NCBI RefSeq assembly: GCF_008974145.1 | Contig: NZ_BJKP01000002.1 | Location: 1 to 64,000, forward strand | Source: Microcystis aeruginosa NIES-4325 | GTDB lineage: Bacteria > Cyanobacteriota > Cyanobacteriia > Cyanobacteriales > Microcystaceae | Length of the DNA: 64,000 nucleotides | Reading direction: 5' to 3' | Shown: piece after piece, positions 27,154 through 38,778 of the stretch | How the letters are laid out: every line of letters starts with the position of its first letter | Numbering within the stretch: position 1 is the stretch's first letter | Program-made: the position numbers and the translations under genes | Notes under the pieces: model-generated | The model's input: the letters and a program-made list of their open reading frames with translations, nothing else | What the model was told of the DNA's origin: nothing | Database searches by the model: none

Positions 27154-28845
27154 TTAGATAACGACAATATTAGTATTGGCGATAGATGCCAAGTTACTGA
27201 GAGTTGCGATTTGAATCGCAGCAGTAGCACCATTACCATCTACGTCAAACCGTAAAGCGCCATCAGTGGTATTGTAGATGAATCTTTGCGTTGCATTATT
27301 GGCGCTAGTAACTCCCGCACCAGATCGGAATTGTGTAGCCAACAAAGTACCAACAACCAGTCCACCAGCAAAACCAGCGGCAGAAACTAGGATAGAATCG
27401 GCATTTCCGCCACTGGTGGCAAAATCGGTGATGGTGTCAACGCCTTCGCTGGGATTGTTGAAAACAAAGCTATCACTATTACCAGAACCGGTTAGGGTAT
27501 CGGTTCCCGCGCCGCCAATTAGGGTATCGTTTTGCCCGGCACCGGTTAGACTATCATTGCCATCGCCACCGATTAGGCTATCGGTTCCCTGCCCACCATC
27601 TAGGGTATCGTTGCCATCACCACCGATTAGGGTATCGGCTCCCTGCCCACCGTTTAGGATGTCGTTTCCATCACCACCGATTAAGGTATCGTTTCCATTA
27701 TCACCACTTAGGGTGTCATTGCCCGTACCGCCATCGAGTAGGTTCGCACTATTATTCCCGGTAAGGTTGTCGTTGCCAGCGCCGCCAAAGAGGTTTTCGA
27801 TATTGCTGAGGGTGTCCGTACCCTCGCCAGTGTCCTGGGATCCGCCAGCACCCAGGTTGACGGTGTTGTCGGCTTCGCCAAATATTGCCGTGTCGAGACC
27901 TGCGCCACCGTTTAGGCTATCGTCCCCCAGACCACCAGTTAGGCTATCGGCGCCACCGTTACCATTTAGGGTATCGTTGCCAGTACCACCAATGAGAGTG
28001 TCTGCGTTAGCGCCGCCGGTCAGGGTGACAGCAGTGGCATTTCCGCTATTGGTGAGCGTCCATCCCGATGTACCAGTCGCTGAAGCAACGTTGATGTTAA
28101 AGCCGCTCGCCGTGACCGATGCAGTGCCTGCGTTGCTGGTCGATCCAGTGGCAGTCCAGGCTGCTGCCGCCGTGGCATTCGCCGTGGCACCAGCGGCGAC
28201 AAGCAGGATGTCGGTGCCGTTTCCAAGATCGGAAATGGTGTCGGTGCCAGCGGCGACGTTGAAGGTATCGTTGCCATCGCCACCGATTAGGCTATCGTCC
28301 CCTAGGCCACCATTTAGGCTATCGTCCCCTAGGCCACCGATTATGGTATCCGCTGCACTGCCACCGGTTAGAGTATCGTTGAAAGCACTACCTGTAATGA
28401 AATAGGGAACGTTGGCGGGGAGTGGTGCGATCGTAGTTTGACCAGGTGTGGGTATGCCCAGATTTATTGGTACCGTATTTGCCGCTTTCGTGTACGAAGG
28501 ACCGTTGGGGTTGATTTTTAGTGTATGAGTGCCGCCAGCCGTAGCCGTAGATCTAACAAAGGTATTGGTATTTGCTGGCAGAACAAGGGTTTTAGAAAAG
28601 CCTCCACCGTAGCGAGAAAGGGTTGAGCTAACATCACTGCCAGTTCCGTTGAATAATCTCCAAGCCGTATTGCCGCCAGCAAAAACGCCAATGGAAGTAA
28701 GATTATAGGTACCAGTGGCTGTTGTCGGCAGGGAAATAGGGGTATCAGTAAAGGTGTTCAGGAACTGGGCAACTGTTGCAAATTGACCAACAGCGAAATT
28801 AACACCAGTGGTGGAGTTAGCGAAAGATATAATGATAGCGGACAT
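27154..28845 (-). CDS. RTX-type calcium-binding repeat protein
   Basis: From ATG 28843-28845, preceded by CAAAGGAAAA, this gives 563 residues; the longer frame starts inside a transposon. Nonapeptide repeats of the GGxGxDxLx type ([22 protein letters not shown]) fill about 165-215 and 295-465. The final 95 residues resemble the C-terminal unit ([18 protein letters not shown]) seen in exported cyanobacterial RTX proteins, probably a type I secretion signal. The first 165 residues are a beta-rich unit I do not recognise. No N-terminal signal peptide. Folds on binding calcium outside the cell. Confidence 0.85.
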
Positions 28846-28865
28846 AGTTTTTCCTTTGAGTGATA

Positions 28866-28963
28866 TAGCAAAAAATGGGTTATTTAGGACGCTTTCAATT
28901 TTCAAACTCTTATTGGTCAAGGGTTTCAGCGATTGATTGTCCTAACCACCCCGATCTTTGCTA
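28866..28963 (-). mobile_element. 98-bp MITE with TA target, copy 2, in the RTX leader
   Basis: Inverted copy of 17071-17168: same length, ends TAGCAAA and TTTGCTA, flanked by TA at 28864-28865 and 28964-28965. It sits 20 bp upstream of the RTX start codon, so it lies in the untranslated leader or promoter of that gene and may have changed its expression. Confidence 0.85.
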
Positions 28964-31274: not shown

Positions 31275-32417
31275 ATGCGCGTTAGGTGCTTTTGTACTAC
31301 TATTAAATCCATTGAAGGCGATCGAGTTTTCTGGTGCGAAGTGCCACAATTAAGAAGATCGATCGATGCGATCGCTGGAAGCGTGGCAAATGACGAAGCA
31401 GTGTATCTTGATCTGTGGCAATGGTTACAGAATGATCCTAATAACCAATTAGTCAAGTCTCATTGGATGGTTTTTTTACAATATCGCTCCTGTATAGTAA
31501 CGCAAAGGGTCTATCAAAATGTTGGCCATCGGATCGATGCTGATTATGAAACCCTATTCTACTATTTGCTGAACTTGCTTGCCACGGCAATCACCAACAA
31601 TCCTAGCAATTTTTACAGTAACTTTCAGGATAAAAAGACCAAACCGGTATTTTTTCGCTTAATCTTAGAAAAATGGACAGATAAAAAATTAAGAAATACT
31701 CTCTATAATTTCCTGCGAGGAGAGTATAAAACTATTGGCAGGACTAATCTCGGTATAGTCAGTCTTTTTAGTGCGAATAAAATTCAAAAAGTTTTACGAG
31801 CATCGGGTATCTTTACCGAGAATCATCTGCTAATATTTAACTGTTTTCGAGAGGTAAAAAAAGCTTCTCCTAGATCATTGGATAAGTGGCAAGAGGAGGA
31901 TTGGCAACAAGTAATCGATCGCTTGCATCAGTTACAACCGCAAGTTATTCTCACCGTGGAGGAAGTACAAGCAAAACTCAATCAAATAGGGGAGATAATG
32001 CGTAATCATATCGATCCTCCTTACTCTAAATTTGAGCCGACTAATTATGACCATGATAGCAATTACTTTTGGGAAAATCTCCCCAGCAAGAGGACAAATC
32101 AAGACTTACTACAACAGCAAGAAATCCAGGAAGATATCAATAAGTTATTAATCACTCAAGAGGAGGAAGTTAAACAGATTGTATATTGTTACTATCATCA
32201 AAAGATGACGCAGGCACAGATATCTAATCGATTGGGAGTTCATCCATCTACTATTAGTCGAGAAATAACCCAATTATGTAAAAAAGTTTATCAGCTACTC
32301 TGTGCAAGGGAAGGCAAATATTGTCCTAAGTTGTTAAATGAGATTAAATTACAATCTCGGCAAAAACAAGAGATCGATGCTTATCTAGAATATTTTTGTC
32401 AGTCCTACTTAACTTAA
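31275..32417 (+). CDS. sigma-70-like regulator linked to CHAT/DUF1822 genes
   Basis: From ATG 31275 this gives 380 residues; a GTG nine bases upstream is possible. The C-terminal part EEEVKQIVYCYYHQKMTQAQ, then ISNRLGVHPSTISREITQL, is a helix-turn-helix like sigma region 4. The N-terminal 250 residues are helical and poorly conserved with standard sigma factors; no clear region 2 was seen. Proteins of this type commonly sit beside DUF1822 and CHAT genes in cyanobacteria. It probably controls the cluster it heads; the next gene starts 22 bp downstream. DNA targets are unknown. Confidence 0.65.
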   Translation: MRVRCFCTTIKSIEGDRVFWCEVPQLRRSIDAIAGSVANDEAVYLDLWQWLQNDPNNQLVKSHWMVFLQYRSCIVTQRVYQNVGHRIDADYETLFYYLLNLLATAITNNPSNFYSNFQDKKTKPVFFRLILEKWTDKKLRNTLYNFLRGEYKTIGRTNLGIVSLFSANKIQKVLRASGIFTENHLLIFNCFREVKKASPRSLDKWQEEDWQQVIDRLHQLQPQVILTVEEVQAKLNQIGEIMRNHIDPPYSKFEPTNYDHDSNYFWENLPSKRTNQDLLQQQEIQEDINKLLITQEEEVKQIVYCYYHQKMTQAQISNRLGVHPSTISREITQLCKKVYQLLCAREGKYCPKLLNEIKLQSRQKQEIDAYLEYFCQSYLT

Positions 32418-32439
32418 ATCTAATCTGTTAGGAGATACC

Positions 32440-33795
32440 ATGAAAGTCAACCTCGATATTTTGCAACAAATTAACCCAAAATCCCTTTGGCTAACTTTTT
32501 CGGAAACAGAGATTAAACAAGCTCGATCGATTCTCGGTCAATACTCTAATCAAACCGCCAAAAATCAGGCTTTGATTAATTACTTAGTGCAAATATGCTT
32601 AAGCAATTGGCTGAAAGATCATCTTGATTCTTCTCTTCAAATAATACCTGAAAACCCTCAGTATCTTTGGGAGTTTATTAACGGGGTTACTTGGCAAGTC
32701 CAAGATAAAAAAGTGACTACTATTCCCAGTCAAACTATTGACATTGAGGGATTGATAATAGAGCAAGAATGGGTTGATATTCCCGATTTAGCGGCGGATT
32801 TTTATCTAGGGGTACAGGTAGATTTAGCAGAAAAATTTCTCAATATCTGGGGTTTTATATCCAGAGAAGATGTTAAAAATCTCGCAGAATACGATCCAAT
32901 TTACCATCAATATTATTTAGATAGTGAGCAAATAATTGATGATTTAGATATTCTTTGGCAGAGTTGTTTAGAGGGAGAGAGTGAAAAAGGAAAGCTGGAA
33001 TCTCTAGCAAATTTATCGCCAGCAACAGCAGAAAATTTAATTAAAAAGTTAAGTCAAGTTTCACCCTATTCTCCAAGATTAGATATTAATTTTCAGCAGT
33101 GGTTAGCTTTGTTGAATAATCAACAATGGCGAGAAAAACTTTATCAGCAGCGTTTAGAGGTAATCCCCACCAAACTTAGTCAATGGTTGCAGGGAATTAT
33201 TACAGAGAAATGGCAGGAAATCCTCGACAATTATCGTCCAATTAATCCAGGGTTTTTGTTGGCTGCTGAAAAAATCAGCAGTCGAGAATCTCCAGCAGAT
33301 ATTCAGCGAGGAATTAGACAACTGTATGCTAGTCAAAAAGGGGTGGAATTTTCGGAACATTTAACCCCAGAGGAAGCTTTAGCAAAACTACAACATCAAA
33401 CCCAAGATGAAACTATTCGCTGGCAAGCGGCCGAATATCTCTGGAATATCGATCCCCATTATCCCAATGCTGCTATCCGCAAAATGCTCGATGTGGGTAG
33501 TCAATTAATGGGTTATAAAATCGCTTTAATGGTGGGAGTTTTATCGACCAGTCACCAGAGAATTGCTGTCTTAATTCGTGCCTATGCCATGGACAATTTT
33601 GCCAAGCTACCCCCCGGTTTATCTTTGCAAATTAGCGATGAAATAGGCCAATTAATCCCCAGTTTAGAAGCAATAGCAAGGGAGAAACCCTTAGATAGCT
33701 ATCTACAACTTTATTTTCTAGCTGATGCCGACGATCGCTTTAATGTTAACCTAAGTTTAGGGGATAGTAGCATTACCGAACAGTTTAGGATTTAA
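32440..33795 (+). CDS. DUF1822 family protein
   Basis: A 451-residue soluble protein without signal peptide. The N-terminal half (ALINYLVQICLSNWLKDHL, EFINGVTWQVQ, DFYLGVQVDLAEKFLNIWGF) fits what I remember of DUF1822, a cyanobacterial family of unknown function. The C-terminal 180 residues are helical, with EALAKLQHQTQDETIRWQAA and YKIALMVGVLSTSHQRIAV, perhaps a degenerate HEAT-like unit. ATG follows TTAGGAGA. Lies between the sigma-like gene and the CHAT receptor, 32 bp before the latter. It may link the two, but that is inference. Confidence 0.7.
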   Translation: MKVNLDILQQINPKSLWLTFSETEIKQARSILGQYSNQTAKNQALINYLVQICLSNWLKDHLDSSLQIIPENPQYLWEFINGVTWQVQDKKVTTIPSQTIDIEGLIIEQEWVDIPDLAADFYLGVQVDLAEKFLNIWGFISREDVKNLAEYDPIYHQYYLDSEQIIDDLDILWQSCLEGESEKGKLESLANLSPATAENLIKKLSQVSPYSPRLDINFQQWLALLNNQQWREKLYQQRLEVIPTKLSQWLQGIITEKWQEILDNYRPINPGFLLAAEKISSRESPADIQRGIRQLYASQKGVEFSEHLTPEEALAKLQHQTQDETIRWQAAEYLWNIDPHYPNAAIRKMLDVGSQLMGYKIALMVGVLSTSHQRIAVLIRAYAMDNFAKLPPGLSLQISDEIGQLIPSLEAIAREKPLDSYLQLYFLADADDRFNVNLSLGDSSITEQFRI

Positions 33796-33827
33796 TAGAG
33801 ATAGCAGAAAATGTCAAGGATAAAGAC

Positions 33828-36437
33828 ATGAGCAGAGTTGTGATTCTGAAAATTGGGGAGGGAAATTTTGCAACGGGATTCTCCGTCACTCTAGAAATTC
33901 GTGACAATCATCGCTTGATAGCGCCTTTTGCCGAGGGTAAATTAGTCCCTAACCTTGACATTGCTGACGCTTTGCAAAATTATCGTCGAGCTTATTATCA
34001 TTGGGTAAAAAGTCAACCCAGTTTAGGAATTACCGTTCCTCATAGTATGATCACCCATGCAGCGTTAGGTGATCCTAGAGACAACCTCAGAAAAGCCACT
34101 AAAACTTTAAAAGATAGCTTAAATGAATGGCTAAATTCCAGTTCTCTGAGTTCGATACAAAATCATATCTTGTTCCATATAAATACTAAGTCAGAAGTCA
34201 GATTTTTTATCCAAACTACCCACTTTGATCTACAACAAATTCCCTGGGAGTGTTGGAATTTTTTACACCAATGGTGTCCCGATGTGGAAATTGCTCTTAC
34301 TATCCAGAGAAATCCCCCGATAATTAACCTTACTCCTCCAATTAAGGTTTTAGTAATTTTGGGCAATATTGACATCAAAAACGATCATAATTACCTGTGT
34401 TTATCCAGTTTACAAATGTTACTAGGAAACCCAAATCAGGTTTCTATGCAAATATTGAGTCCCAGTTCAAAAGTTCCTATTTCAACAAAAAATATTCACA
34501 ATGAGTTGATCAAAAATCAATGGGATATTGTAGTTTATTTAGGTCATAGTCAAACCAGTAGCGACGGTCACGATGGAGTTTTTATCATTGATAATGATAC
34601 GGCTTTATCTCCTGATCATAACTTAAGAAATTCCCTAGAAATAGCTGTTAAAAAAGGATTAAAACTTGTTATCTGTAACTCCTGCGATGGGTTAGGTATT
34701 GGTCGTCAGTTGGCTAATATTGGAGTACCGCATATTATTGTTATGAAAGAACCGATCGCCGTGCGGGTTGCTTTGAGATTTCTAGAAGTTTTTCTTCCCA
34801 ATTTTCTTGGACATAAATCCCTACAGGAATCCTTAACAATTGCTCGACAAGAATTAAGATTACATGAATTTGAGGTGGATGCTGCTAGTTCTTCTTTGCT
34901 GCCTCGTTTGATAGAAAATCCTGAAGAATCACCGTTAATTCTACCTTTACCCCCTGAAAATACGGAGGAAAATCACCAAAATAATGATGAGCAAAGTTGG
35001 CCTTTCCGTCTATCTAGTCGCTGGAAACAAGCTCTGTTATTTATTTTAAGTCTTCTGGTAACTTTATCGGTTTTATATTGGGGAGGAGTATTTTCCGGTG
35101 ATGCTAGTAAATACCCAGAAATTAGCTTAGGTGAAGAAATATTATTAAAGACAAATCGACAAGATAACATTATTGAACGGGGAAGACAAGCTTTTAAAAA
35201 CCAAGAATATAAACAAGCAGTTCAGCTTTTTAAAAAATCCCTTGATCGCTTGCCCAATAATCCAGAAATTCGCATCTATTATAATAACGCTCGTGCGGCC
35301 TATCAAGACAAAAATCCCTTAAAAATTGCCACCAGTGTTCCGCTTGGTAATAATCCAGAAATAGCTCAAGAAATTTTACGAGGTATTGCTTTATTGCAAC
35401 AGGAGTTAAATGATGAACAGGCCAACAACCCCGATTTTCACTTTCTACAGGTAGTGGTCGCTAATGATAATAATAGTGCCGCAGATGCCAAAGATCGAGC
35501 CGAAAAATTTGTTAAAGATCCGTCAATCATAGCAGTGGTTGGTCATAATGCTTCTGCTGCTAGTGAAGCGGCCAAAGATATTTATGTACAAGGGAAAATT
35601 GTGGCCCTATCTCCCACCAGCTTTTCCCTGAAAATATCTGGTAATGGCTATATATATAAAATGGTTCCCGATCTGGAAACTTTTGCCACAAGCTTAACTG
35701 AATATATCCGCGAACAAACTGACAAGCTAATTATCCAAAACCCCACTAATTTAATTTGTTACGATAGTCGCTCTGGGGATAATTATAACTTTGCTCAAAA
35801 ATATAGAAACATTCTTCTCGGTCAGCAGTTTCAAAAATTCGTCAAAGATGAAGATTTTGACTGCAATATCGAACCAAAAATTAATTTAGATAAACAAGAA
35901 ATTTATCAAAAAATCGCTCAATATCAAGTAAATATTCTCATGGTTGCTCCCTATATTAACGATCTGAAAAGAGCCGTCAGTATCTTTAAGCAACGTCCCG
36001 CACAACAGTTAAACTTAGTAATTTTGGGTTCCCCCTCTTTTCAAAGTTATCTCACCCTTGCAGAAGGTAAACAGGGGGTAGAAAATTTAGTTATCGCCGT
36101 GCCTTGGTATGATCTCACACAAGATAATTATATCCACAGTTTTTGGCAAAATAAGATCAATGTTTGGCGCACTCCCATGGCCTACGATGCGACCAAAGTT
36201 ATCCTCAACGCTTTGCGACAGTTATCCCAACAAGGACAAAAATTCGATCGAGAATCATTAAATCAAGTTTTAAGAGAGGATTTTTCTATCGAAGGAATGA
36301 CTGGCACGGTTAGATTCGATGAGAATGGTGTCCGCAACATGAATAATAATCCTGATGATCGCCGCTACTTGATTCTACAGGTCAAAAATGGTCAATTTGT
36401 CCCCCTCGCTCCCATTAAATCTGCCGGTCTACTCTAA
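33828..36437 (+). CDS. transmembrane CHAT protease with TPR and periplasmic-binding ectodomain
   Basis: An 869-residue protein. Residues 1-380 hold a CHAT caspase-like domain with His in VVYLGHSQTS near 241 and Cys in LVICNSCDGLGIGRQL near 286, so the dyad is present. A single helix (ALLFILSLLVTLSVLYWGG, about 401-419) follows. A TPR-like pair comes next (GRQAFKNQEYKQAVQLFKKS near 450). Residues about 500-865 resemble a Leu/Ile/Val-type periplasmic binding protein (FVKDPSIIAVVGHNASAASE, VALSPTSFS, PMAYDATKVILNAL). With the N-terminus inside, an external ligand-binding domain would control an internal protease. ATG follows AAGGATAAAG. Confidence 0.85.
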   Translation: MSRVVILKIGEGNFATGFSVTLEIRDNHRLIAPFAEGKLVPNLDIADALQNYRRAYYHWVKSQPSLGITVPHSMITHAALGDPRDNLRKATKTLKDSLNEWLNSSSLSSIQNHILFHINTKSEVRFFIQTTHFDLQQIPWECWNFLHQWCPDVEIALTIQRNPPIINLTPPIKVLVILGNIDIKNDHNYLCLSSLQMLLGNPNQVSMQILSPSSKVPISTKNIHNELIKNQWDIVVYLGHSQTSSDGHDGVFIIDNDTALSPDHNLRNSLEIAVKKGLKLVICNSCDGLGIGRQLANIGVPHIIVMKEPIAVRVALRFLEVFLPNFLGHKSLQESLTIARQELRLHEFEVDAASSSLLPRLIENPEESPLILPLPPENTEENHQNNDEQSWPFRLSSRWKQALLFILSLLVTLSVLYWGGVFSGDASKYPEISLGEEILLKTNRQDNIIERGRQAFKNQEYKQAVQLFKKSLDRLPNNPEIRIYYNNARAAYQDKNPLKIATSVPLGNNPEIAQEILRGIALLQQELNDEQANNPDFHFLQVVVANDNNSAADAKDRAEKFVKDPSIIAVVGHNASAASEAAKDIYVQGKIVALSPTSFSLKISGNGYIYKMVPDLETFATSLTEYIREQTDKLIIQNPTNLICYDSRSGDNYNFAQKYRNILLGQQFQKFVKDEDFDCNIEPKINLDKQEIYQKIAQYQVNILMVAPYINDLKRAVSIFKQRPAQQLNLVILGSPSFQSYLTLAEGKQGVENLVIAVPWYDLTQDNYIHSFWQNKINVWRTPMAYDATKVILNALRQLSQQGQKFDRESLNQVLREDFSIEGMTGTVRFDENGVRNMNNNPDDRRYLILQVKNGQFVPLAPIKSAGLL

Positions 36438-36544
36438 ACCTTCCTATCCTTGTCAAGACTTTTTACAAAACTTAACCTTACCCACTGCATTAAAGTTGGC
36501 CATCACTCCTAATTAACAGGTAACACCTCTAGGAGACAAACGGC

Positions 36545-37264
36545 ATGAAATTGTTAAAAAAATTAACCCCAAAGGCCTTGATTTTTTGGCTGATCGGTGA
36601 TAAGGCAGGAAATTCTCTCGTTGCGATCTGGAATTGGTTGTGGGGTATTCCCATCGAATCCGGCGGAAAAATTGCCGTAGAATCGGCCAAAGAATCCCTA
36701 GAATCGATGCAAAAATCCCTAGCGGAATTGACAGAATCGGTGGCGCAAGTAGTAGCCGCCCAGCAATCGGCTCAAGCACAATACGAGGCAAAAAAACAGG
36801 AACACACAAACTACTTGCAGCAGGCTGTCACCGCTCAAAAAAAAGGACTTCAAGAAGCGGCAAGACTGGCTATGGTTAAGGTTATCTCCCTAGAAAAAAT
36901 TCTACCCGCCATGAAAGATCGGGTCGATAATGCCGAAAAAGTGGTCATTGCTGCTAAGGAAAAACTTCGTAAAGAGCAGGAAAAAATCGAGCATTATAAG
37001 TTAGAAATGAGCAACTTAAAAGCGATTAGTTCCATGAATGAGGCTTTAGGTAAAATAAACGAATTTGATAGTAGTCTCAACCTCAATACCTCCCGCGATC
37101 GCTTTGAGGATGCCAATGAAGCGATTAAAGACCGTTATCGAAAAGAAAACGCCTATAGTGAATTAAGCGAGAACTATAGCGAGAAATTAGCTCAAGAAAT
37201 CGATTTCTTAAGCCTTGATGACGAAATTAACCGCCGTTTAGCCGAATTCAATCAGCAAAGTTAA
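36545..37264 (+). CDS. PspA/IM30-like coiled-coil protein
   Basis: A 239-residue, mostly helical protein. After a hydrophobic amphipathic N-terminus (ALIFWLIGDKAGNSLVAIWN) come long heptad stretches from residue 50 to 165 (QAQYEAKKQEHTNYLQQAVT, AAKEKLRKEQEKIEHYKLE). A further helix region follows, with SRDRFEDANEAIKDRYRKEN. The arrangement resembles PspA/IM30 proteins, which belong to the ESCRT-III superfamily and protect membranes, but identity is by pattern only. Strong ribosome site TAGGAG. Sits between two membrane receptor genes, 11 bp before the second, so it is probably part of the same operon. Confidence 0.55.
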   Translation: MKLLKKLTPKALIFWLIGDKAGNSLVAIWNWLWGIPIESGGKIAVESAKESLESMQKSLAELTESVAQVVAAQQSAQAQYEAKKQEHTNYLQQAVTAQKKGLQEAARLAMVKVISLEKILPAMKDRVDNAEKVVIAAKEKLRKEQEKIEHYKLEMSNLKAISSMNEALGKINEFDSSLNLNTSRDRFEDANEAIKDRYRKENAYSELSENYSEKLAQEIDFLSLDDEINRRLAEFNQQS

Positions 37265-37275
37265 GGAGTAAAGCG

Positions 37276-38625
37276 ATGACAAAGACTGGCAAAAAAGCGA
37301 GCTTACCGCCAATTTTCTATATTTTACTGGGGTTGATCGGTTGGTTTCTTTTTCCCCAAATATTGGCAATATTTGCCCCAAAAGCCGATAATAATCCCCG
37401 CATCAGTTACGGCAATCATCTCCTGATCAAAACTAATTCTAACACCATCAAAGAATCAGCGATCGCTGCCATTGCTCAAGGTGATCACCAAGAAGCAGAG
37501 CAACTCCTGCAAAAATCCCTCGCTCAACATCCCAACGATCCCGAAAGCATAATTTATCTCAGCAACCTGCAAACTGGCTCAAATCCCTTTAAAATCGCCG
37601 TTGTTGTGCCAGCTACAACTAATCCCAACGTCGCTCAGGAAATATTGCGAGGAGTCGCCAGCGCACAAACCCAGATCAATCAACAGGGAGGGATCAACGG
37701 CAGAAAACTGATGGTTATCGTGGTTAATGACGATAATCAGCCGCAGATATCGAAAGAGGTAGCCAGTGAATTAGTCAAAAATCCTGATATTATCGCTGTT
37801 ATCGGTCATAATGCCTCCGATGCCAGTTTAGCCGCCGCTCCCATCTACGAAAAAGGTGGTTTGGTGATGATTTCTCCCACCTCCCTGGCTAATAATCTCT
37901 CCGGTGCGGGAAATTATATCTTTCGTCTGGTGGCTTCTAACGGCAAAATTACGGAAATCTTAGCAAATTACATAGTAAATACTGCTAAAGTCCGGAAAAT
38001 TGCTTTTTGCTACGATTCTCAAGCTCCCGATAATATTTCCTTTAAAGATGAGTTGATGGCTAATGTGGCGAAAAAAGGCGGTCAAATTGTGCCGATTGTC
38101 TGCGATCTGAGCGTCCCCAATTTTAAGGCCGATCAAGCTCTTAATCAGGCGATTTCTGGGGGTGCTAACGGCCTATTTGTCGTCGCTCATGTTGATCGTC
38201 TCGATCCCGTTTTTGAGGTTATTCGCTCCAATCGTCAGCGTTTGCCTCTGTTTAGTAGTCCCACCCTCTACAATATTCGCACCCTCGAAGATGGCGGCAA
38301 AAACGCCCAAGGTTTAACCCTTGCCGCACCCTGGCACCCATCGCTTAACCAGACTTTTGCCAATCTTATGCAGGAACAGTGGCGCGGTCCGGTTAGTTGG
38401 CGCACAGCCACCAGTTTTGACGCTACACGGGTGATTATTGCCGGTTTAAGGGAAAATCCTCATCGTCAGGGCCTACAATCCCTGCTGCGCTCCGGCAATT
38501 TTCAACAAACAGGGGCCACCGGAAAAATTAGCTTTGATCCTAATACTGGCGATCGCATCGGTCAACCGGTGTTAATTCAAGTGCGATCGACTCCCTCCGG
38601 TGAGCAGTTTGTCCCTTTACCTTGA
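37276..38625 (+). CDS. membrane-anchored TPR and periplasmic-binding receptor
   Basis: A 449-residue protein. One N-terminal helix (IFYILLGLIGWFLFPQILAI) anchors it. A short TPR-like pair follows (AIAQGDHQEAEQLLQKSLAQ), then a Leu/Ile/Val-type binding domain (INQQGGINGRKLMVIVVNDD, IIAVIGHNASDASLAA, SPTSLANNLSG, TSFDATRVIIAGL). It parallels the outer half of the CHAT protein, including the segment GNHLLIKTN against GEEILLKTN, so the two are paralogues and this one lacks the protease. It may share or compete for the ligand. AAGGAG precedes the ATG. Last gene of the cluster. Confidence 0.8.
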   Translation: MTKTGKKASLPPIFYILLGLIGWFLFPQILAIFAPKADNNPRISYGNHLLIKTNSNTIKESAIAAIAQGDHQEAEQLLQKSLAQHPNDPESIIYLSNLQTGSNPFKIAVVVPATTNPNVAQEILRGVASAQTQINQQGGINGRKLMVIVVNDDNQPQISKEVASELVKNPDIIAVIGHNASDASLAAAPIYEKGGLVMISPTSLANNLSGAGNYIFRLVASNGKITEILANYIVNTAKVRKIAFCYDSQAPDNISFKDELMANVAKKGGQIVPIVCDLSVPNFKADQALNQAISGGANGLFVVAHVDRLDPVFEVIRSNRQRLPLFSSPTLYNIRTLEDGGKNAQGLTLAAPWHPSLNQTFANLMQEQWRGPVSWRTATSFDATRVIIAGLRENPHRQGLQSLLRSGNFQQTGATGKISFDPNTGDRIGQPVLIQVRSTPSGEQFVPLP

Positions 38626-38669: not shown

Positions 38670-38778
38670 CCCCAAAAAATCTCAAAAATTACAATTATTT
38701 CAATGTTCAAGCTTGAGTGAGAAATGAATGGCTAATATGTTAAAATATGCCTAGATATTTGTAAAAATTTTCCCTTGT

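Follow-up and report, generated by a model that had tools for sequence, protein, structure and literature searches.

A Microcystis aeruginosa gene cluster combines a receptor-type CHAT protease with a PspA-like protein and its putative membrane receptor

A cluster of five genes with two solute-binding receptors

In the window analysed here (the whole stretch of 64,000 nucleotides, positions 1 to 64,000 of contig NZ_BJKP01000002.1 of Microcystis aeruginosa NIES-4325), we examined a cluster of five genes, all on the plus strand and separated by 22, 32, 107 and 11 bp, exactly as an initial annotation made from the sequence alone had described it (Table 1). One half consists of the genes for a sigma-like regulator, a DUF1822 protein and a membrane receptor with a CHAT protease region (P0003, the CHAT receptor), and the other of the genes for a PspA-like protein (P0004) and a partner receptor (P0005). 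Among the protein labels given by the annotation, Pfam bore out DUF1822, CHAT, PspA-like and periplasmic-binding; the label "sigma-70-like" is the weakest, with scores below the curated cut-offs (Sigma70_r4, 22.3 against 24.1; TIGR02937, 36.6 against 42.9), and HTH_38 was the only helix-turn-helix (HTH) model above its cut-off in this protein. Beyond these claims, we found that genes 4 and 5 make up a separate unit, which is commoner without a CHAT receptor, and that the ectodomain types of the two receptors match.

Table 1. Features of the five-gene cluster in window coordinates (TM, transmembrane; aa, amino acids)
Feature	Position	Strand	Remarks
Sigma-like regulator gene, 380 aa	31275..32417, alternative GTG start 31266	+	HTH near residues 299-337
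DUF1822 gene, 451 aa	32440..33795	+	PF08852 3.4e-67 (Pfam)
CHAT receptor gene (P0003), 869 aa	33828..36437	+	separase-like CHAT region, one TM helix, TPR-like linker, LivK-type ectodomain
CHAT region, residues 1-375, predicted intracellular	33828..34952	+	
His240 codon, predicted catalytic	34545..34547	+	H in 71/71 distinct family members
Cys286 codon, predicted catalytic	34683..34685	+	C in 71/71 distinct family members
CHAT receptor TM helix, about residues 403-421	35034..35090	+	hydropathy 2.17; AlphaFold2 (AF2) model has a low-pLDDT helix at 398-409
LivK-type ectodomain of CHAT receptor, residues 496-861	35313..36410	+	
PspA-like gene (P0004), 239 aa	36545..37264	+	PF04012; own subfamily, W-rich N-terminal signature
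Partner receptor gene (P0005), 449 aa	37276..38625	+	PPI tail, one TM helix, TPR-like linker, LivK-type ectodomain; PF13458 (Peripla_BP_6) 1.8e-33 (Pfam)
PPI tail motif of partner receptor, residues 11-13	37306..37314	+	

A receptor-type CHAT protease with an invariant dyad

Pfam placed a CHAT domain (PF12770, above cut-off, 5.7e-8) and a Peripla_BP_6 domain (1.5e-13) in P0003. Hydropathy analysis revealed a single TM-like segment in this protein (from residue 403) and in P0005 (from residue 16), and none in the PspA-like protein. The catalytic dyad, which the initial annotation had put near residues 241 and 286, lies at His240 and Cys286, and both residues were retained in all 71 distinct sequences, the window's included, found among the 75 long matches of 81 profile matches. 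Comparison of the predicted model of the CHAT half with known folds matched it to separase and to Craspase (the CHAT fold of Csx29); a sequence search of the CHAT profile against the PDB gave nothing at E 0.1, so that the likeness comes from fold comparison alone. A Foldseek search with the LivK-type ectodomain had mGluR and GABA-B ectodomains among its matches. The initial proposal that an outside ligand may switch an inside protease fits both the predicted topology and the fold match.

We found that one N-terminal family carries variable C-terminal sensors, which are of LivK, PstS, CHASE2 or other type. The genome of the window itself has a CHAT-CHASE2 paralogue behind a DUF1822 gene, and a conserved alpha+beta N-terminus, a possible counterpart of the EACC2 domain, is common to this paralogue and the CHAT receptor. 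Of the 148 genomes sampled from the order, 133 had matches to the CHAT family (493 matches, 1-15 per genome). P0003 had no match in 50,697 phage records at E 1e-5, and with PADLOC at E 0.1 proteins 1 and 4 had weak matches while the other three (2, 3 and 5) had none. The NCBIfam HetF model did not match P0003 at E 0.1; the sole CHAT receptor to match it, from a relative, scored 34.6 against a cut-off of 1200.

Among the 75 CHAT receptors of the loci retrieved, 54 had a DUF1822 gene no more than three genes upstream, including 23/28 of LivK type and 12/12 of PstS type; these counts include near-copies, and some of the loci had been picked via the sigma-like gene. Most relatives have, in place of the sigma-like gene, a different gene of 214-247 aa, termed ECF here. 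Three such ECF-like genes had no NCBIfam model match at E 0.01, and one of the three is annotated as sigma-70 family.

The TM-TPR-LivK module of the CHAT receptor also occurs behind other N-terminal parts (loci L050, L051, L053; L092, L093, L095; L052, L072). Pfam identified the N-terminal part as a caspase domain in L050, with which L051 and L053 group in the tree, and by sequence reading it is ATPase-like (L092, L052) or kinase-like (L052, L072).

A distinct PspA-like subfamily and its PPI partner receptor

By its profile scores P0004 is PspA-like and not PspA proper: it matched PspA_IM30 (PF04012, 3.3e-12) with 46.9 bits against a cut-off of 33.9, and reached 22.4 of the 242.95 bits set for the PspA equivalog TIGR02977. 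Searches of 386 genomes of the phylum found its relatives at 38 places in 37 genomes, none with an E value above 6.4e-33; the matches that follow, which start from E 1.2e-9, read as true Vipp1/PspA. A W-rich N-terminal signature is common to 17 aligned members, and most Vipp1/PspA structures align with the subfamily profile only from about position 36-43 onward. On this sequence evidence P0004 belongs to a distinct PspA-like subfamily.

Where a neighbour could be read (36 of the 38 genes), the PspA-like gene was followed by a same-strand solute-binding gene in 32 cases, 10 of LivK type and 22 of PstS type (287-324 aa), with types assigned by profile and Pfam run on one PstS-type partner. P0005, a LivK-type partner, shares 33% identity with the CHAT receptor over their common part. 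Over both locus sets, a PPI motif lies within the first 45 aa of 91 of 94 distinct partners adjacent to a PspA-like gene (73/75 PstS-like, 18/19 LivK-like); among stand-alone proteins without an adjacent PspA-like gene it occurs in 11/30 of LivK type and 1/7 of PstS type. Conservation of the tail together with exchange of the ectodomain suggests that the PspA-like protein acts together with its partner's tail and TM part. At one locus (L169:9441-10841) PspA-like and PPI-TM-PstS parts occupy one open reading frame (ORF) of 466 aa, which is either a real fusion or an assembly artefact.

We also considered an arrangement in the manner of GABA-B, with the ligand pocket lost from the CHAT-arm ectodomain and kept in that of the partner. 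It found no support, as many LivK-conserved positions are kept in the CHAT arm. Positions of P0005 that are mostly changed in the CHAT arm are H354, G371, V373 and S248, in a comparison at the level of sequence.

The two halves recur together with matched ectodomain types

The neighbourhood search suggested in the initial annotation showed the five families side by side in other genomes too, arranged in more than one order. Neither of the two conditions named there as refuting the proposal, lack of synteny in other genomes and lack of conservation of the CHAT dyad, was observed. In the best 79 of 117 PspA-like relatives in named records, taken with flanks of limited length, CHAT-profile matches were found in the flanks of 19 loci. 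These amounted to 25 genes against about 0.8 expected from 3.3 CHAT-family genes per genome and an assumed genome size of 5.7 Mb, the 25 including near-copies and one unrelated CHAT gene. The match in Argonema (L225) belongs to another kind of CHAT protein, a short one lying some 5 kb away, and a CHAT gene cut at a contig end (L263) was omitted from the comparison of types. In all 16 readable loci of this set the two ectodomains were of the same type (9 LivK/LivK, 7 PstS/PstS, 0 mixed), counts that are inflated by near-copies, five from Microcystis and seven from Nostoc. Outside the 79 loci, LivK/LivK clusters were found in genomes G197 (L048) and G397 (L316) and on a plasmid of Planktothrix pseudagardhii (NZ_LR882968, L273), and PstS/PstS clusters in G380, G068 and G276, the CHAT-PstS proteins of which group with those of Nostoc.

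The gene order is sigma-DUF1822-CHAT-PspA-PBP in Microcystis (PBP, periplasmic-binding protein) and PspA-PBP-(others)-ECF-DUF1822-CHAT in Snowella, G197, G397 and the Planktothrix plasmid. UBA11371 has DUF1822-CHAT-CHAT...PspA-PBP, Microseira and UBA11372 are similar and cut by a flank or contig end, and Nostoc has divergent PspA-PstS / ECF-DUF1822-CHAT-PstS genes. Altogether, both halves are co-located in about nine lineages. On the Planktothrix plasmid p1 (a 53-kb record; no other among 72,556 plasmid records had a PspA-like match at E 1e-15) the complete PspA-PBP-ECF-DUF1822-CHAT cluster spans L273:773-7552, with integrase, VapC toxin and relaxase genes nearby.

CHAT receptors linked to a PspA-like gene were of solute-binding type in 9 of 10 lineages, compared with 5 of 40 sampled CHAT receptors (Fisher p 7e-6). 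The sample (20 CHASE2, 15 other, 4 LivK, 1 PstS) was hand-picked at roughly even steps, with the type not yet known, from the best-scoring part of the 493 matches and came mostly from new genomes; removal of the PspA-linked Microseira and G397 receptors, both LivK, left 3/38 against 9/10 (p 1e-6). The ten lineages, which are our own grouping, are Microcystis, Microseira, UBA11372, UBA11371, Cyanosarcina, Snowella, G197, the Planktothrix plasmid, Nostoc and its kin, and Argonema, which is the one miss. G397 is not among the ten, G133 was counted together with Snowella ULC335bin1, and G436 together with Microseira.

Some clusters contain further genes. In Microseira wollei (L191:3-6971) the PspA-LivK pair is preceded by a tandem of three CHAT-LivK receptors, an array of diverged sensors of which the first is truncated by the end of the flank. 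In G197 a 491-aa gene that reads as protein-kinase-like (L048:3374-4849) lies between the PspA-PBP pair and the ECF-DUF1822-CHAT genes, and G397 (L316) has a 463-aa gene at the matching place.

Ectodomain trees

In the LivK trees the two receptors of the window fall into two separate groups, both of which recur in Microseira and in two UBA genomes; the pairing of the two receptor groups is therefore probably old. For the group holding the window's CHAT ectodomain, the first tree gave support of 96/88 and the second 93/92; from the second, fused rows and five long or uncertain rows were left out, and the groups that join this ectodomain to others in the second tree (93/92 and 90/91) are below the star limit. 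The CHAT ectodomain of G197 instead falls beside the PspA partner from the same cluster (98/98 in the first tree, 98/96 in the second), and UBA11372 has one CHAT ectodomain that clusters with its own PspA partner and with that of Microseira (99/93; 100/92). In G197 and UBA11372 the match thus seems to have been renewed by copying within the cluster. In the PstS tree (45 of 75 PspA-partner rows, all 12 CHAT rows and 7 others) the CHAT-PstS ectodomains form one clade on a long branch (100/100), away from the adjacent PstS partners. The match in Nostoc is thus one of fold type and does not point to recent copying or recombination.

A possible two-armed receptor system

The reading that we prefer, to which we give a probability of about 0.4, is a two-armed membrane receptor system with a protease/sigma arm and a PspA assembly arm. 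In the protease/sigma arm, the ectodomain of the CHAT receptor would bind a small ligand, probably resembling an amino acid, on the outer side of the plasma membrane, and binding would alter, through the TPR-like linker and the TM helix, how the separase-like CHAT protease oligomerises inside the cell. The protease would then cleave the DUF1822 protein, in the manner of the anti-sigma substrate Csx30, and perhaps itself, and the sigma-like protein would be freed for transcription. We regard the DUF1822 protein as the likeliest substrate and brake, and as a candidate anti-sigma factor, because its gene sits between the sigma-like and CHAT genes. In the assembly arm, the partner receptor, with an ectodomain of the same type, may control through its short inside PPI tail the assembly of the PspA-like protein on the membrane. 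Where both arms are present, they might sense one ligand class or form mixed receptors. The genomes themselves establish the gene content, the domain order, the invariant dyad, the linkage of PspA-like gene and partner and the matched ectodomain types; topology, ligand class, DUF1822 cleavage, PspA assembly, mixed receptors and the physiological outcome are inferred. Among possible outcomes, of which cell death is one, we favour adaptation, since the output gene resembles a regulator and the sensor a solute receptor.

The core of sigma-like gene, DUF1822 gene and CHAT receptor has a known counterpart. A 2021 paper in eLife (PMC8195603) predicted EACC2-caspase / ECF sigma / DUF1822 systems, with which this core agrees, and to this extent the initial view that the system had not been described as such does not stand. 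In the parts of that paper available to us, these systems consist of a constant N-terminal domain and a caspase-superfamily protease with a variable, sometimes extracellular C-terminal sensor (CHASE2 among others), next to DUF1822 and sigma-factor genes, and signal-induced proteolysis with a sigma output is predicted for them (PMC8195603). Our cluster shares the CHAT protease with its dyad, the variable C-terminal sensor and the DUF1822 neighbour, and its sigma-like neighbour may correspond to the ECF sigma factor, whereas the section on these systems contains no second receptor with a matched ectodomain. The nearest worked-out relay known to us, and a precedent by analogy for a CHAT-substrate-sigma order, is Csx29-Csx30-CASP-sigma of type III-E CRISPR, in which, in the part of the source seen, a CHAT protease cleaves the inhibitor of an ECF-like sigma factor (PMC10028731). 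Its trigger is target RNA acting through Cas7-11, in contrast to the membrane receptor here, with DUF1822 as the putative counterpart of Csx30. HetF of Anabaena is a CHAT - one TM - TPR membrane protein that functions in a cyanobacterium and in which the active site matters (PMC8406250); unlike our CHAT receptor, its domain scheme in that source has no solute-binding ectodomain. In the papers that could be searched, we found nothing on what triggers the CHAT receptors in this family, what they cleave or what output they have.

For the half made up of the PspA-like protein and the PPI receptor, we found no description. A word search of the main text of PMC8195603, figures and source data lying outside it, gave no PspA, periplasmic, PBP, VIPP or ESCRT. 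P0004 shares with PspA/Vipp1/IM30, a peripheral membrane family of the ESCRT-III superfamily (PMC11237479, seen in part), a PspA_IM30 domain above cut-off, and differs from it by its N-terminus and its partner. The PspA neighbourhood survey in that paper lists partners such as thioredoxin, Toastrack and AAA+, as well as a PBPB-OmpA protein in ABC operons; no PPI-TM-PBP receptor is among the partners named, and "chat" matches an author name alone, in a search that did not extend to Figure 3 ("cyanobacterial variations") and Table S3. Likewise, our literature searches did not find the PspA-like/PPI-receptor pair or its link to CHAT; these searches did not extend to figures, tables, supplements and subscription papers and do not prove that the pair is unpublished. 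The new part, as judged from sequence, would be the PspA-like subfamily with its PPI-TM solute-binding partner and the matched pairing of this partner with the CHAT receptor.

Several observations weigh against a two-armed system. On the protease side, the "sigma" label for gene 1 is weak; the predicted model of the DUF1822 protein is poor (pLDDT 54.7), and a fold search with this low-confidence model gave no match at E 0.001. On the side of the linkage, 56 of the 79 PspA-like loci have a solute-binding partner and no CHAT gene in their flanks. Moreover, when four more solute-binding-type CHAT receptors were followed up, three of them, two from a single genus, proved to come from genomes without a PspA-like match at E 1e-15, and in Cyanosarcina (L193) a CHAT-LivK gene adjoins a PspA-like gene with no partner gene. 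Each half is thus common without the other, so that coupling of the two arms, as far as these genomes tell, is optional. All PstS/PstS matches are, by the single CHAT-PstS clade, one lineage, which makes the comparison of LivK with PstS by lineage alone a weak test, and the matching of types could stem from recombination between neighbours.

The last point belongs to a different explanation, in which two independent units happen to lie 107 bp apart without joint function and the ectodomains resemble each other through recombination of neighbouring copies. That both units are commonly separate, and that the two receptor kinds are kin in G197 and UBA11372, agrees with this; the co-location in about nine lineages and several orders, with the excess of CHAT-profile genes over expectation, and the separate PstS-type CHAT clade, whose match with the adjacent partners recent recombination does not explain, make it rather improbable. 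Somewhat less improbable, and still unlikely in our judgement, is a cell-death or counter-invader role, with a ligand or envelope damage causing the CHAT protease to kill or arrest the cell and the PspA-like arm serving as immunity, brake or membrane executor. PMC8195603, in the part seen, counts EACC2-caspase systems among counter-invader conflict systems, and the variable sensors, the many CHAT-family copies per genome and the toxin and mobility genes beside the plasmid copy are in keeping with such a role. The PADLOC and phage searches speak against it, and a sigma-like gene and a solute receptor would suit signalling better. We rejected a third explanation, nutrient uptake or chemosensing by substrate-binding parts of ABC importers, as very improbable. 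The LivK/PstS-type domains and database names favour it (for the Planktothrix CHAT receptor, "ABC transporter substrate-binding protein"), but Pfam found no permease or ATPase among the five genes, and the solute-binding domain is fused through a TM helix to CHAT and elsewhere, as described above, to caspase, kinase-like or ATPase-like parts.

Within the two-armed system, the receptors may even be heteromeric, which we consider improbable: one subunit would carry the separase/caspase-like protease and the other would recruit an ESCRT-III-like PspA-family filament in response to the same ligand, with ectodomains exchanged in step (LivK to LivK, PstS to PstS). Class C G-protein-coupled receptors (GPCRs) and ANF-type receptors, which are dimeric and sometimes heteromeric, likewise use a type I periplasmic-binding fold as extracellular sensor and are unrelated inside the cell. 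In eukaryotic death signalling, ESCRT-III repairs the membrane against caspase-driven lysis, and a heteromeric protease/PspA receptor would, if true, be a prokaryotic parallel. As a solute-binding ectodomain can be purified and screened for ligand, the cluster could make the logic of the CHAT family testable. It also offers a candidate dedicated membrane receptor for a PspA-family protein, which bears on how an ESCRT-III-like assembly is cued, and it joins CHAT and PspA receptors in one cluster that also occurs on a plasmid.

Genomic surroundings of the cluster

By reading of ORF translations, the neighbours of the cluster are a minus-strand fatty-acid desaturase gene and a plus-strand response regulator gene. 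The phylum sample has seven genomes of this genus, the window's own included, and six of them keep the five genes in unchanged order between flanking genes of like size and strand (in G310 the flanks were matched by DNA). The seventh (G235) had no match to gene 1 (sigma-like) or gene 4 (PspA-like); its homology to the window ends at 31299 and restarts at 38733, and the flanks lie on two contigs, so that either a deletion or a rearrangement may underlie the empty site. An Rfam scan of the window gave no match at the gathering score, and no tRNA was found in the window. In a promoter/terminator scan, the 107-bp gap between genes 3 and 4 contained no plus-strand terminator-like site; promoter-like matches were scattered, and the scan carries no evidential weight. 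Near the cluster, on the minus strand (27154-28920), a 588-aa ORF has many GGxGxD-type nonapeptide repeats and reads as RTX-like.

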